Origin: Pithys albifrons albifrons
Taxonomy: Eukaryota; Chordata; Aves; Passeriformes; Thamnophilidae
Assembly: GCF_047495875.1 (NCBI RefSeq)
Contig: NC_092486.1
Span: 1,102,501 to 1,166,500, forward strand
Direction: 5' to 3'
Length of the DNA: 64,000 bases
Below, piece after piece: positions 724 through 57,387 of the stretch. The notes beneath the pieces were generated by a model that saw only the letters and a program-made list of their open reading frames with translations, searched no databases and was not told the origin of the DNA. Each line of letters opens with the position of its first letter. The stretch's first letter is position 1. A program made the translations under genes and the position numbers.

Positions 724-853
724 CAAAGAGGGTGCAGAAGAGGGCGCCGAGCACGGGGTCGGGCAGGGACGCGAACAGGGCGCTGAACTTGCCCACCATG
801 CCCAGCAGCAGCATGAAGGCAGCGCCGTACTGGATCACCCTGCGGCTGCCAAC
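724..853 (-). CDS. SLC23A2: SLC23A2 coding exon 12
   Basis: Encodes [20 protein letters not shown] then [20 protein letters not shown] and TLF plus one base (residues 452-494). The LPDPVLGA segment is conserved in SLC23 proteins. Acceptor CTCTCTCCCCAG, donor TTTG|GTGAGA. The acceptor and first exon bases resemble the unit of the ~2.9 kb minisatellite that starts at the intron edge. Confidence 0.96.
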
Positions 854-3740
854 CTGGGGAGAGAGCACAGCACCACTGGCACACATCCTGCCCAGGCTGA
901 GGAGAGAGCACAGCACCACTGGCACACATCCTGCCCAGGCTGAGGAGAGAGCACAGCACCACTGGCACACATCCTGCCCGGGCTGAGGAGAGAGCACAGC
1001 ACTACACTGGCACACATCCTGCCCAGCCTGGGCAGAGAGCACAGCACACTGGGGAATCCTGCCCAGCCTGGGCAGAGAGCACAGCACCACACTGGCACAC
1101 ATCCTGCCCAGTCTGGGTGGGCAGAGAGCACAGCACCACACTGGCACACATCCTGCCCAGCCTGGGTGGGCAGAGAGCACAGCACCACACTGGCACACAT
1201 CCTCCCCAGTCTGGGCAGAGAACACAGCACACTGGGGAATCCTGCCCAGCCTGAGGAGAGAGCACAGCACCACACTGGCACACATCCTGCCCAGCCTGGG
1301 TGAGGAGAGAGCACAGCACCACACTGGCACACATCCTGCCCAGCCTGGGTGGGCAGAGAGCACAGCACACTGGGGAATCCTGCCCAGCCTGGGGAGAGAG
1401 CACAGCAACTGGGAAACCTGCCTCTGGCAAACCCTGCCCCTGGCCCAGCCCAACCTGGGCAGAGAGCACAGCACACTGGGAAATCCTGCCCAGCATAAGG
1501 AGAGAGCACAGCACACTGGCACACATCCTGCCCAGCCTGGGCAGAGAGCACAGCACCACACTGGCACACATCCTGCCCAGCCTGGGCAGAGAGCACAGCA
1601 CACTGGGGAATCCTGCCCAGCCTGGGCAGAGAGCACAGCACCACACTGGCACACATCCTGCCCAGCCTGGGTGGGCAGAGAGCACAGCACCACACTGGCA
1701 CACATCCTGCCCAGTCTGGGTGGGCAGAGAGCACAGCACCACACTGGCACACATCCTGCCCAGCCTGGGTGGGCAGAGAGCACAGCACCACACTGGCACA
1801 CATCCTCCCCAGTCTGGGCAGAGAACACAGCACACTGGGGAATCCTGCCCAGCCTGAGGAGAGAGCACAGCACCACACTGGCACACATCCTGCCCAGCCT
1901 GGGCAGAGAGCACAGCACCACACTGGCACACATCCTGCCCAGCCTGGGTGAGGAGAGAGCACAGCACCACACTGGCACACATCCTGCCCAGCCTGGGTGA
2001 GGAGAGAGCACAGCACCACACTGGCACACATCCTGCCCAGCCTGGGTGGGCAGAGAGCACAGCACACTGGGGAATCCTGCCCAGCCTGGGGAGAGAGCAC
2101 AGCAACTGGGAAACCTGCCTCTGGCAAACCCTGCCCCTGGCCCAGCCCAACCTGGGCAGAGAGCACAGCACACTGGGAAATCCTGCCCAGCATAAGGAGA
2201 GAGCACAGCACACTGGCACACATCCTGCCCAGCCTGGGCAGAGAGCACAGCACCACACTGGCAAACATCCTGCCCAGCCTGGGCAGAGAGCACAGCACCA
2301 CACTGGCACACATCCTGCCCAATCTGGGTGGGCAGAGAGCACAGCACCACACTGGCACACATCCTGCCCAGCCTGGGTGGGCAGAGAGCACAGCACCACA
2401 CTGGCACACATCCTGCCCAGTCTGGGCAGAGAGCACAGCACACTGGGGAATCCTGCCCAGCCTGAGGCGAGAGCACAGCACACTGGCACAAATCCTGCCC
2501 AGCCTGGGTGGGCAGAGAGCACAGCACACTGGGGAATCCTGCCCAGCCTGGGTGGGCAGAGAGCACAGCACCACACTGGCACACATCCTGCCCAGCCTGG
2601 GTGGGCAGAGAGCACAGCACCACACTGGCACACATCCTGCCCAGCCTGGGCAGAGAACACAGCACACTGGGGATTCCTGCCCAGCCTGAGGAGAGAGCAC
2701 AGCACACTGGCACACATCCTGCCCAGCCTGGGCAGAGAGCACAGCACACTGGCACAAATCCTGCCCAGCCTGGGGAGAGAGCACAGCAACTGGGACAAAT
2801 CCTGCCCCTGGCACAAATCCTGCCCCTGGTCCTGCAGGACAGCGCACAGCAACTGGCACAAATCCTGCCCAACCTGGGGAGAGAGCACAGCACACTGGCA
2901 CAAATCCTGCCCAGCCTGGGTGGGCAGAGAGCACAGCACCACACTGGCACACATCCTGCCCAGCCCAACCTGGGCAGAGAGCACAGCACACTGGTACAAA
3001 TCCTGCCCAGCCTGGGTGGGCAGAGAGCACAGCACACTGGCACACATCCTGCCCAGCCCAACCTGGGCAGAGAGCACAGCACACTGGCACACATCCTGCC
3101 CAGCCCAACCTGGGCAGAGAGCACAGCACACTGGCACAAATCCTGCCCAACCTGGGGAGAGAGCACAGCACACTGGCACAAATCCTGCCCAGCGTGGGTG
3201 GGCAGAGAGCACAGCACACTGGCACACATCCTGCCCAGCCCAACCTGGGCAGAGAGCACAGCACACTGGCACCAATCCTGCCCAGCCTGGGTGGGCAGAG
3301 AGCACAGCACACTGGCACAAATCCTGCCCAGTCTGGGTGGGCAGAGAGCACAGCACACTGGCACAAATCCTGCCCAGTCTGGGTGGGCAGAGAGCACAGC
3401 ACACTGGCACAAATCCTGCCCCTGGCCCAGCCCAGCCTGGGCAGAGAGCACAGCACACTGGCACAAATCCTGCCCCTGGCCCAGCCCAGCCTGGGCAGAG
3501 AGCACAGCACACTGGCACAAATCCTGCCCAGCCTGGGCAGAGAGCACAGCACACTGGCACCAATCCTGCCCCTGGCCCAGCCCAGCCGGGGCAGAGAGCA
3601 CAGCACACTGGCACAAATCCTGCCCCTGGCCCAGCCCAGCCTGGGCAGAGAGCACAGCACACTGGCACAAATCCTGCCCAGCCTGGGCAGAGAGCACAGC
3701 ACACTGGCACAAATCCTGCCCCTGGCCCTGCCCCACCCCC
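854..3740. repeat. Minisatellite of 43-56 bp units fused to the exon 12 acceptor
   Basis: About 65 units, on the plus strand of the form GCAGAGAGCACAGCACACTG followed by GCACAAATCCTGCCCAGCCTGG. On the transcribed strand each unit ends CTGTGCTCTCTGCCCAG then GCTGGGCAG. The true exon 12 junction is CTGTGCTCTCTCCCCAG then GTTGGCAGC, so the exon acceptor is effectively the last unit. The array is free of stops in all three sense frames for about 2.7 kb. A block near 1408-1502 recurs about 698 bases later, showing higher-order duplication. Confidence 0.95.
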
Positions 3741-7014: not shown

Positions 7015-7505
7015 CTGTGAAGCACAGAGAGAAACCAGAGTGACATTTGTGTGAGCACAGAGAGAAACCAGAGTCACATTTGTGTGAGCACAGAGAGAAA
7101 CCAGAGTCAAGTCACATTTGTGTGAGCACAGAGAGAAACCAGAGTCCCATTTGTGTGAGCACAGAGAGAAACCAGAGTCAAGTCACATTTGTGTGAGCAC
7201 AGAGAGAAACCAGAGTCACATTTGTGTGAGCACAGAAAAACCAAGAGTCCCATTTGTGTGAGCACAGAGAGAAACCAGAGTCACATTTGTGTGAGCACAG
7301 AGAGAAACCAGAGTGATATTTGTGTGAGCACAGAAGAAACAAAGTCCCATTTGTGTGAGCACAGAGAGAAACCAGAGTCAAGTCACTTTTGTGTGAGCAC
7401 AGAAAAACCAAGAGTCCCATTTGTGTGAGCACAGAGAGAAACCAGAGTCCCATTTGTGTGAGCACAGAAAAACCAAGAGTCCCATTTGTGTGAGCACAGA
7501 GCCCT
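7015..7505. repeat. 33-bp minisatellite containing the exon 11 polypyrimidine tract
   Basis: About 15 units of period 33, GTGAGCACAGAGAGAAACCA plus GAGTCACATTTGT on the plus strand. On the transcribed strand each unit reads CTCTGGTTTCTCTCTGTGCT; the exon-proximal unit continues TTCACAG straight into exon 11. The working acceptor is therefore the first unit of the array. Confidence 0.95.
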
Positions 7506-11345: not shown

Positions 11346-12287
11346 ACTGAGCTCCTGCCCCTCCCCCCAGCAGTGCCCCCCCAGCAGTGCCCCCCCAGCA
11401 GTGCCCCCCAGCAGTGCCCCCCCAGCAGTGCCCCCCCAGCAGTGCCCCCCCAGCAGTGCCCCCAGCAGCCCCACTTACAGGGGTAGGGCACCTTGAACCA
11501 GGGCGCCACCAGCAGTGCCCCCCCAGCAGTGCCCCCAGCAGTGCCCCCCCGGCAGTGCCCCCCCAGCAGTGCCCCCCCAGCAGTGCCCCCAGCAGCCCCA
11601 CTTACAGGGGTAGGGCACCTTGAACCAGGGTGCCACCAGCAGTGCCCCCCCCAGCAGTGCCACCAGCAGTGCCCCCCCAGCAGTGCCCCCAGCAGTGCCC
11701 CCCCGGCAGTGCCCCCCCGGCAGTGCCCCCAGCAGTGCCCCCAGCAGCCCCACTTACAGGGGTAGGGCACCTTGAACCAGGGTGCCACCAGCAGTGCCCC
11801 CAGCAGTGCCCCCCCAGCAGTGCCCCCCCAGCAGTGCCCTCAGCAGTGCCCCCAGCAGTGCCCCCCCAGCAGTGCCCCCAGCAGTGCCCCCCCGGCAGTG
11901 CCCCCCCGGCAGTGCCCCCCCGGCAGTGCCCCCAGCAGTGCCCCCCCAGCAGTGCCCCCAGCAGCCCCACTTACAGGGGTAGGGCACCTTGAACCAGGGT
12001 GCCACCAGCAGTGCCCCCAGCAGTGCCCTCAGCAGTGCCCCCCCAGCAGTGCCCCACTTACAGGGGTAGGGCACCTTGAACCAGGGTGCCCCCAGCAGTG
12101 GCCCCCCAGCGGTGCCCCCAGCAGTGCCCCCCCAGCAGTGCCCCCCCAGCAGTGCCACCAGCAGTGCCCCCAGCAGTGCCCCCAGCAGTGCCCCCCCAGC
12201 AGTGCCCCCCCAGCAGTGCCCTCAGCAGTGCCCCCCCAGCAGTGCCCCCCCAGCCCCCCCAGCAGTGCCCCCAGCAGCCCCACTTAC
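11346..12287. repeat. Minisatellite carrying five extra copies of the exon 9 3' end and donor
   Basis: Units of about 14 bp (CCCCCCCAGCAGTG on the plus strand) are interspersed with five ~50-bp blocks that duplicate the last 37 bases of exon 9 and its donor. The exon-like ends lie at 11479, 11606, 11758, 11975 and 12062, each followed on the minus strand by GTAAGTGGGG. The copies are almost perfect (one T-to-C change in copy 1 and one change near the far end of the fifth). On the transcribed strand the array is very G-rich. Confidence 0.95.
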
Positions 12288-12444
12288 AGGGGTAGGGCAC
12301 CTTGAACCAGGGTGCCACCAGCAGCACTCCCCGCCGCGCGTCCGTGCGCGCGTAGAACCCGTACTTGGAGCTGTCCGGGGGGAACACGTCCGTCACCGTG
12401 AAGATGAAGCACAGCAGCCACGACACCAGGATGGCCAGGATGAT
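12288..12444 (-). CDS. SLC23A2: SLC23A2 coding exon 9
   Basis: Encodes [20 protein letters not shown] through [12 protein letters not shown] to [12 protein letters not shown] plus one base (residues 315-366). Acceptor GTGCCCCCAG, donor CCCCT|GTAAGT at 12287. The last 37 bases (12288-12324, residues [12 protein letters not shown]) with the donor occur five more times in the intron that follows. Reading past the donor stays open in the exon's frame ([11 protein letters not shown]...). Confidence 0.96.
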
Positions 12445-18425: not shown

Positions 18426-18499
18426 GCAGCTGAGCCCACCCCAGCTCTCCCCTGGCACTCCACGTGACAGCTCCCCCCGTGGCCCTGGCCCAGGCAGGC

Positions 18500-20429
18500 C
18501 CCCAGCAGTACTCACAGCATGGCAATGCCCCAGTGCTTGCCAGCCCTCTCCCCTGTGCCCCCAGCAGTACTCACAGCATGGCAATGCCCCTGTGTCCCCC
18601 TGTGCCCCCAGCAGTACTCACAGCATGGCAATGCCCCAGTGCTTGCCAGCCCTCTCCCCTGTGTCCTCCTATGCCCCCAGCAGTACTCACAGCATGGCAA
18701 TGCCCCTGTGTCTCCCTGTGCCCCCAGCAGTACTCACAGCATGGCAATGCCCCAGTGCTTGCCAGCCCTCTCCCTGTGCCCCCTCCCAGCAGTACTCACA
18801 GCATGGCAATGCCCCAGTGCTTGCCAGCCCTCTCCCTGTGCCCCCTCCCAGCAGTACTCACAGCATGGCAATGCCCCAGTGCTTGCCAGCCCTCTCCCTG
18901 TGCCCCCAGCAGTACCCCCCAGCAGTACTCACAGCATGGCAATGCCCCAGTGCTTGCCAGCCCTCTCCCCTGTGCCCCCTCCCAGCAGTACTCACAGCAT
19001 GGCAATGCCCCTGTGTCCCCCTGTGCCCCCTCCCAGCAGTACTCACAGCATGGCAATGCCCCAGTGCTTGCCAGCCCTCTCCCCTGTGCCCTCAGCAGTA
19101 CTCACAGCATGGCAATGCCCCAGTGCTTGCCAGCCCTCTCCCCTGTGCCCCCTCCCAGCAGTACTCACAGCATGGCAATGCCCCAGTGCTTGCCAGCCCT
19201 CTCCCCTGTGTCCTCCTGTGCCCCCAGCAGTACTCACAGCATGGCAATGCCCCAGTGCTTGCCAGCCCTCTCCCCTGTGCCCCCTCCCAGCAGTACTCAC
19301 AGCATGGCAATGCCCCAGTGCTTGCCAGCCCTCTCCCTGTGCCCCCAGCAGTACTCACAGCATGGCAATGCCCCAGTGCTTGCCAGCCCTCTCCCCTGTG
19401 CCCCCTCCCAGCAGTACTCACAGCATGGCAATGCCCCAGTGCTTGCCAGCCCTCTCCCCTGTGTCCTCCTGTGCCCCCAGCAGTACTCACAGCATGGCAA
19501 TGCCCCAGTGCTTGCCACCCCTCTCCCTGTGCCCCCAGCAGTACCCCCCAGCAGTACTCACAGCATGGCAATCAATGCCCCAGTGCTTGCCAGCCCTCTC
19601 CCCTGTGCCCCCTCCCAGCAGTACTCACAGCATGGCAATCAATGCCCCAGTGCTTGCCAGCCCTCTCCCTGTGCCCCCTCCCAGCAGTACTCACAGCATG
19701 GCAATGCCCCAGTGCTTGCCAGCCCTCTCCCCTGTGCCCCCAGCAGTACTCACAGCATGGCAATGCCCCAGTGCTTGCCACCCCTCTCCCTGTGCCCCCA
19801 GCAGTACCCCCCAGCAGTACTCACAGCATGGCAATCAATGCCCCAGTGCTTGCCAGCCCTCTCCCCTGTGCCCCCTCCCAGCAGTACTCACAGCATGGCA
19901 ATGCCCCAGTGCTTGCCAGCCCTCTCCCTGTGCCCCCTCCCAGCAGTACTCACAGCATGGCAATGCCCCAGTGCTTGCCAGCCCTCTCCCCTGTGCCCCC
20001 TCCCAGCAGTACTCACAGCATGGCAATGCCCCAGTGCTTGCCAGCCCTCTCCCCTGTGCCCCCTCCCAGCAGTACTCACAGCATGGCAATGCCCCAGTGC
20101 TTGCCAGCCCTCTCCCTGTGCCCCCAGCAGTACCCCCCAGCAGTACTCACAGCATGGCAATGCCCCAGTGCTTGCCAGCCCTCTCCCCTGTGCCCCCAGC
20201 AGTACTCACAGCATGGCAATGCCCCAGTGCTTGCCAGCCCTCTCCCCTGTGCCCCCAGCAGTACTCACAGCATGGCAATGCCCCTGTGTCCCCCTGTGCC
20301 CCCAGCAGTACTCACAGCATGGCAATGCCCCAGTGCTTGCCAGCCCTCTCCCCTGTGCCCCCTCCCAGCAGTACTCACAGCATGGCAATGCCCCTGTGTC
20401 CCCCTGTGCCCCCTCCCAGCAGTACTCAC
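18500..20429. repeat. Array of about 31 copies of the exon 7 3' end plus donor
   Basis: Units of about 50-70 bp. On the minus strand the core is GAGAGGGCTGGCAAGCACTG then GGGCATTGCCATGCT|GTGAGTACTGCTGGG, that is the exon 7 codons for [10 protein letters not shown](L) followed by an intact GT donor. Some units are shortened and keep only GGGCATTGCCATGCT|GTGAGT. The unit nearest the gene is the real exon 7 end at 20430. Sense reading meets TGA after each donor. Confidence 0.96.
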
Positions 20430-20611
20430 AGCATGGCAATGCCCCAGTGCTTGCCAGCCCTCTCTCCAGCTGCCTGGAAGCCCGAGAGGCCGATGAGGGC
20501 CACGGTGGGGGTGATGGTCAGGGGCCCGATGTAGCGCAGCAGAGCCCCGGGCAGCCCCAGCAGGCCGATGGCCACCTCGATGAGCGACGACATGATGATG
20601 GCACCTTGGAT
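20430..20611 (-). CDS. SLC23A2: SLC23A2 coding exon 7
   Basis: Encodes 60 codons plus [22 protein letters not shown] ... [20 protein letters not shown] then [11 protein letters not shown], residues 214-274, covering two transmembrane segments including the highly conserved [17 protein letters not shown] stretch. Acceptor GTGTGTTCAG. Donor ATGCT|GTGAGT at 20429. The last 35 bases of the exon and this donor are the seed of the tandem array at 18500-20429. Reading through the donor gives an immediate in-frame stop (CTG TGA). Confidence 0.96.
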
Positions 20612-54780: not shown

Positions 54781-54784
54781 CATC

Positions 54785-55100
54785 CCACCCTGTGCCCCGG
54801 ACACGCACCTGGAAGGTCCCACCCTGTGCCCTGGACACGCACGTGGGAGGTCCCACCCTGTGCCCCGGACACGCACCTGGGAGGTCCCACCCTGTGCCCC
54901 GGACACGCACCTGGGAGGTCCCACCCTGTGCCGCGGACACGCACCTGGGAGGTCCCACCCTGTGCCCCGGACACGCACCTGGGAGGTCCCACCCTGTGCC
55001 CCGGACACCCACCTGGGAGGTCCCACCCTGTGCCCCGGACACGCACCTGGGAGGTCCCACCCTGTGCCCCGGACACCCACCTGGGAGGTCCCACCCCCCT
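54785..55100. repeat. ~34-bp minisatellite (GGACACGCACCTGGGAGGTC)
   Basis: Nine units of GGACACGCACCTGGGAGGTC plus CCACCCTGTGCCCC, almost identical. On the minus strand each contains CTCCCAG|GTGCGTG, which resembles a splice donor. It is open in several frames, explaining the DLPGACPGHRVGPP-type reading frames. Confidence 0.97.
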
Positions 55101-56600: not shown

Positions 56601-56830
56601 AGTGGATTTCAGGTGAGGCTCAGCGTGCACAGAACTGGCCCCACCGTTTCAGTCCTGAGGTTCATCTGCCACGGCCGAGCGAGCCTGGACGGTGCCAGTG
56701 AAGTCCTCAGGACTAGAACCTACAGCCCCCGGCATTGCCCAGGAGGTCTCCCATCCAAGTGCTAATCCGGGGCTGACCCTGCTGAGCTTCCGAGACCTGA
56801 CGGGATCGGATGCCAGGGAGGCATTAACTG
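56599..56830 (-). pseudogene. 5S rRNA-derived element, copy 1
   Basis: On the minus strand, 56815 to 56719 matches vertebrate 5S rRNA. It includes GGTCTCGGAAGCTCAGCAGG (box A region) and CACTTGGATGGGAGACC (box C), and ends CCGGGGGCTGTAGG, close to the 5S 3' end. The first bases of 5S are altered or missing. A 5S-unrelated body follows, shared with copy 2 at exactly 420 bases' offset. Not a functional 5S gene; probably a SINE-like or processed derivative. Confidence 0.8.
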
Positions 56831-56905
56831 CCTTGCTTTTAACTGCCTTAAATGAAAGCACCCCACATTTGTTCAAATTATCTTTCCTTTCTTAACTGTG
56901 TTAAC

Positions 56906-57009: not shown

Positions 57010-57245
57010 CCAGCCTGTGCAGTGGATTTCAGGTGAGGCTCAGCGTGCGCAGAACTGGCCCCACCGTTTCAGTCCTGAGGTTCATCTGCCACGGCCGAGC
57101 GAGCCTGGACGGTGCCAGTGAAGTCCTCAGGACTAGAACCTACAGCCCCCGGCATTGCCCAGGAGGTCTCCCATCCAAGTGCTCATCCAGGGCTGACCCT
57201 GCTGAGCTTCCGAGACCTGACGGGATCGGATGTCAGGGAGGTGAA
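57010..57245 (-). pseudogene. 5S rRNA-derived element, copy 2
   Basis: Same structure as copy 1: 5S-like head at 57235-57139 (minus strand) followed by the shared body. The body is followed by one GGACAGCCCTGCCCAAATC unit and the (CA)n run. The two copies differ by only a few bases over about 230 positions. Confidence 0.8.
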
Positions 57246-57387
57246 GCCACAAGATAAACCCCAGAGAAGTGCCAGGACAATCTCGGAGATAACGATTTTA
57301 CAGCTCGTTATCTGTGACTGCTCCGAGCCGGCACCCGCAGAGCTCCCTCGATGGCAACAACACTGAATAAACTGATAAAAAGAATAA

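Follow-up and report, generated by a model that had tools for sequence, protein, structure and literature searches.

The window, by which we mean the whole stretch of 64,000 nucleotides analysed here, carries coding exons of SLC23A2 on its minus strand. When the 13 exons that lie in the window are spliced together they yield 540 codons free of stops, which leaves these coding exons intact. At the protein level the best matches among those listed are to SLC23A2, with 98% to a cluster named for duck and 97% to turtle, and the predicted translation fits birds; the closest solved structures among those listed are of SLC23A1. The matches on C29 are SLC23A2 itself, while those on C3, C15 and C8 are paralogues that are 28-78% identical, the counts there being lower bounds. 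Nearby lie a PRNP-like open reading frame and a RASSF2-like gene, which fit the human gene order, PRNP-RASSF2-SLC23A2. Pfam was used for gene placement only, on 20 of 30 selected open reading frames drawn from 910 outside the window, and it placed PRNP-like, RASSF-like, prominin-like and TGF-beta-like genes there.

The contig is 6,075,814 bp long and repeat-dense around SLC23A2. Arrays of period 7 or more (TRF) cover 48% of the 12 SLC23A2 introns, whose GC content ranges from 40 to 69%, and 37% of a 264-kb stretch that includes the window. One such array, upstream of the first coding exon at 54783-55096, consists of a 34-bp unit present 9.2 times with 96% match. On the minus strand this unit contains a donor-like CCCAG/GTGCGT; no exon was recognised at this place. 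Close by, the minus strand has two 5S rRNA-like matches over the full length (56717-56835 and 57137-57254; 47 and 53 bits, Rfam), which are possibly diverged copies or 5S-derived repeats.

The tandem array at the end of exon 7

20430..20611, minus strand: SLC23A2 coding exon 7 (c7), 182 bp, with acceptor TTCAG/ATCC and donor CATGCT/GTGAGT
18498..20464, minus strand: array of the exon-stuttering kind in intron 7 (TRF), with 31 complete units of 47-71 bp (commonest 63)

Coding exon 7 ends, on the minus strand, in CATGCT/GTGAGTACTG with 20430 as its real last base, and the units of the intron 7 array contain CATGCT/GTGAGTACTGCT. Each unit has CATGCT/GTGAGT, and in the longer ones as much as 35 bp corresponds to exon 7. 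A search of the entire minus strand of the window for CTGTGAGT gives 32 matches, all of them within 18517-20431. The gene-proximal match marks the true end of the exon, whose final 35 bp are the gene-proximal unit of the array, and the remaining 31 are extra donors. An exact 30-mer, CAAGCACTGGGGCATTGCCATGCTGTGAGT, is present at 24 of the 32 donor sites. By a screen modelled on the published one (blastn-short, matches of 20 bp or more that score 42.1 bits or more, on the exon strand only), the end of c7 has 26 matches in intron 7. The best of these (69.9 bits) spans 35 bp, exon positions 148-182 of 182, and the weakest (56.0 bits) spans 28 bp, positions 148-175, and stops short of the exon border. 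The screen falls five short of the 31 donors since the short units of types D, E and M, five in all, are missing most of the copied exon sequence.

Much of this had been anticipated in a preliminary description of the locus. Its reading of the unit as up to 35 bp of the exon 7 end followed by an intact donor is borne out by the BLASTn alignment and the 32 donor matches. That the real exon end is simply the gene-proximal unit agrees with the position of the last exon base and with the intact 13-exon model, and its estimate of about 31 further donors within 2 kb proves to be exactly 31 in 1,914 bp of intron 7. That exon 7 is coding where it stands is upheld by the stop-free 540-codon model and the paralogous nature of the matches on C3, C15 and C8. 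The end given in that description, 20611, is the acceptor side of the exon; the array ends at 20464.

The 31 complete units fall into 14 types that are mixed along the array. Only 34 of the 1,914 bases in the alignment depart from the most frequent base, and the alignment itself forces some of these departures; the units vary mostly in the length of G-runs and in the presence or absence of short blocks. With so few base changes, the array is recent or homogenised. An edit distance of at most 20% separates 28 of the 31 units from the commonest one, and the three that exceed it are short. The bases flanking the donor show zero substitutions across the 31 units, and the changes fall in the G-rich part. 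TRF offers an alternative fit with a period of 263 bp (7.4 copies, 87% matches), but no run of three or more identical unit types recurs along the array, and duplication of whole blocks within it is therefore possible, not established. A 14-mer of the unit has at least 105 matches in the assembly and is therefore not specific.

Other multiplied junctions and their surroundings

Exon 7 is not the only exon with a multiplied edge. Three of the 24 junctions tested in SLC23A2 are multiplied, namely the exon 7 donor (32 sites in all), the exon 9 donor (6) and the exon 12 acceptor, and a further array runs up to exon 11:

12288..12444, minus strand: SLC23A2 coding exon 9 (c9), with donor TACCCCT/GTAAGT
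11363..12287, minus strand: second donor array, in intron 9, a GGGGGCACTGCT-type minisatellite with five further copies of the exon 9 end and donor
724..853, minus strand: SLC23A2 coding exon 12 (c12), with acceptor CTCTCCCCAG/GTTGGC
about 849/854..3733, minus strand: acceptor-side array adjoining exon 12, in intron 11, with about 60 units that repeat a pyrimidine tract and CAG
7016..7501, minus strand: array up to the acceptor of coding exon 11, with units that resemble its pyrimidine tract
about -29742 to -30105 in window coordinates, to the left of the window: copies in the RASSF2-like gene, whose exon starts at about -30105

The copies in intron 9 have their last exon-like bases at 12062, 11975, 11758, 11606 and 11479. 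By the screen, the end of c9 has 5 matches in this intron of 65.9-73.8 bits, with 37 bp in both the best and the weakest, and the best matches of both exons end exactly at the exon border (c7 at 148-182 of 182, c9 at 121-157 of 157). In 20 runs of a shuffled control the best match of at least 20 bp reached 20.3 bits, compared with 56.0-73.8 bits observed. No other pairing of the 13 exons with the 12 introns passes the BLASTn thresholds. This includes the exon 12 acceptor, where too little of the exon is copied for the published screen to detect the array. Here the 24-base junction has 29 matches with up to 3 mismatches and the last 20 intron bases have 61 with up to 4 mismatches, the real site being counted in both cases. 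At exon 11 the AG junction itself is not copied within 7016-7501, where its one match is the real site. The arrays of introns 9 and 7 (11363-12287 and 18498-20464) share an exact 14-mer, ACTGCTGGGGGCAC, which may reflect cross-talk or coincidence. A common origin of the two was considered but set aside, a shared 14-mer ranking only joint second among 276 pairs of arrays.

The neighbouring gene is affected as well. In the RASSF2-like gene one acceptor and the start of its exon are present in five extra copies with a unit of about 72 bp (the exon edge and copies were set by eye). Five of the seven RASSF2-like exon pieces are without extra copies. A further piece gave 31 extra matches that were not counted because the alignment ran into an intronic array. 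The paralogues present a different picture: all 14 exon pieces, nine on C15 and five on C3, are without extra copies, and TRF arrays cover 1.7% of the matched span on C15 and 0.2% of that on C3. The span of the SLC23A1-like paralogue on C15 has 68% GC and yet almost no arrays, and GC alone is therefore not the cause. With clean paralogues and an affected neighbour, the stuttering seems to depend on the location and not on the gene family.

Origin of the arrays

The preliminary description knew of no named class for a minisatellite built from the splice donor of a live gene. Such a class does exist. In the main text of Hron et al. (2026, Genome Biol Evol, PMC12954441), exon or sequence stuttering is described in chicken, mainly on dot chromosomes. 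The chicken screen gave 236 introns (190 on dot chromosomes, 10 on other microchromosomes and 36 on macrochromosomes), in which the exon part measures 20-187 bp (median 36), the copies number 1-44 (median 4) and the span is 112-23,555 bp (median 1,751). Local expansions in other birds are also mentioned there, and length variation between individuals is a main feature of the class. The array in intron 7 is a clear example of this published kind, not a new kind of system. As in the chicken class, the edge of a coding exon with its donor or acceptor recurs across the neighbouring intron as imperfect direct tandem copies while the exon stays intact, and the copied part sits at the exon border (PMC12954441). 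The exon parts of 35 and 37 bp in the best matches, the copies (in intron 7, 26 by the screen or 31 counted as donors; in intron 9, 5) and the spans of about 1.95 kb and 0.85 kb all fall within the published ranges. The difference lies in the material, since the screen was of chicken whereas the present case is another bird, known from one assembly.

In the literature searched, the terms 'exon stuttering' and 'sequence stuttering' were found in Hron et al. (PMC12954441) alone, whose main text, as distinct from its supplementary gene list, does not mention SLC23A2. No other report of minisatellites derived from a live donor was recognised among the matches listed, and the best 8 matches listed for SLC23A2 held nothing on that gene. 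What the present locus contributes is exon stuttering at donors and acceptors alike, in SLC23A2 and in its RASSF2-like neighbour, with two unaffected paralogues as built-in controls. It is useful more as a test case than as a surprise, on account of its donor number, its acceptor arrays, the neighbour that is affected too and the paralogues that are clean.

Exon stuttering is very probably the best explanation of the intron 7 array. It would consist in the local tandem expansion of a segment straddling an exon-intron border of SLC23A2, through replication slippage or unequal meiotic repair. Slippage or repair on structured DNA and unequal meiotic exchange both fit the data. G makes up 45% of the sense strand of the array, which has 31 starts of G4 motifs against 0 on the other strand, an asymmetry that is in line with a structure-driven route. 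In a first duplication, about 35 bp of the exon 7 end and the donor would have been copied into the intron, and later expansion would have led to 31 units. The gene-proximal copy would be kept by selection because it is protein-coding, and the remaining copies would be free to vary in number. The array would be tolerated, presumably as a neutral feature, because the gene-proximal copy stays intact. Splicing would normally take place at the first donor, and the array would be no device but a side effect of a microchromosome region prone to repeats.

How such an expansion might begin is indicated by intron 9, where the copied exon part starts at CTGCTGGTGGCAC, one base off the intronic unit CTGCTGGGGGCAC. 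At this start, 12 of the 13 bases of a c9 13-mer agree with the intronic unit; c9 is the sole exon of the 13 with such agreement, the others reaching at most 11. None of 300 shuffles attained 12 of 13 in this corrected, post hoc test. An earlier version with a wrongly closed unit had given 10 of 13 for c9 and 11 of 13 for c7 and c12, with 6 of 1,000 shuffles reaching 12. That the intron 9 array started from short similarity between exon and intron is suggestive only, the test being post hoc, and the intronic unit could also have been derived from the exon. The 12-of-13 match is a concrete candidate for the seed from which arrays of this kind could arise. A start from exon-intron similarity had been proposed beforehand for intron 7; the idea gains from the seed in intron 9, but the supposedly intronic match in intron 7 lies itself inside the copied unit.

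An ordinary minisatellite might instead have overlapped the exon edge by chance, and no special class would then be needed. We consider this rather unlikely. Intronic VNTRs and minisatellites share unit size, head-to-tail copies and G-rich strand asymmetry with the intron 7 array, though the unit of the latter differs in being built from a live exon end and its donor. Enrichment of arrays at splice sites was not found: 4 of 25 splice-site flanks lie inside arrays (one of them half-inside), compared with the 48% cover of the introns. Splice sites are caught less than the average intronic sequence, which is what passive spread would give if coding constraint halted it. However, chance overlap differs from exon stuttering mainly by name, and the recurrence of arrays in the gene and its neighbour, together with the clean paralogues, points to regional instability.

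Splicing at the multiplied sites and the remaining explanations

All 31 distal donors of exon 7 would give a premature stop, a TGA being placed 1 base after the real donor, and regular use of the distal donors is therefore unlikely. At exon 9, the first distal donor would leave the frame open but shifted, and the other four would meet a stop. As distal use would harm the product, the first donor would have to be chosen mostly for the gene to work. Among the 13 donors of the gene, the real one of exon 7 is second weakest (5.55 bits by a PWM), and next to copied donors without substitutions this may allow for some donor competition.

From here it is a short step to a functional donor cluster, in which the extra donors would compete and their copy number would tune the output of SLC23A2 via nonsense-mediated decay. 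The weak real donor and the premature stop after every distal choice would suit such a role, as would the retention of the real donor's nine bases in 31 of 31 extra donors and the confinement of changes to the G-rich part. We nevertheless hold it to be improbable: base changes are too few array-wide for the invariant donor stretch to say much, and the arrays of introns 9 and 11 differ in frame and outcome, leaving no common logic. About as improbable is a splicing rheostat tunable by copy number, with 31 decoy donors in cis, each followed directly by a stop, that would compete with the weak real donor, and with an array length that would set SLC23A2 output. If true, the gene would have turned part of its own exon into an evolvable dial, the array length probably being quick to change. 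No function for the array emerges from the present data. The 31 extra donors do provide a natural test of how the spliceosome chooses among near-identical donors.

Two other effects had been suggested at the outset. U1 snRNP is abundant relative to tens of sites on one pre-mRNA, and on these general grounds its titration by 31 sites on one pre-mRNA finds no support. Nor is there support for a decoy-exon cluster, as the intron 7 units, by eye, are without a pyrimidine-tract acceptor and G-rich at that place.

Tandem arrays are where assemblers generally fail, and the copies might have arisen from misassembly of one or a few units. This is scarcely credible in view of the 14 unit types intermixed along the array and of the independent arrays, built from different sequences, that occur at further junctions and in the RASSF2-like neighbour. 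Nearly negligible is the chance that intron creation is in progress through duplicated splice sites, as passages of PMC2812944 report for tandem repeats at exon-intron boundaries that form novel introns in human segmental duplications: the units supply a donor but, with G-rich sequence before each CAG (by eye), no acceptor, and a pair of units is therefore unlikely to make an intron. Those human repeats are likewise minisatellite-like and overlap exon borders, but they can form novel introns or lengthen exons (PMC2812944), whereas here the extra copies are confined to one intron and the exon is unchanged.

On the acceptor side, the exon 12 array is crossed by an open frame of 1,130 codons that continues into the exon. 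It was rejected as coding evidence, the other two frames being largely open too. A crude pyrimidine rule picks out 36 acceptor-like sites in this array, compared with 21 in the rest of intron 11, and 10 of the 36 are in frame and open.
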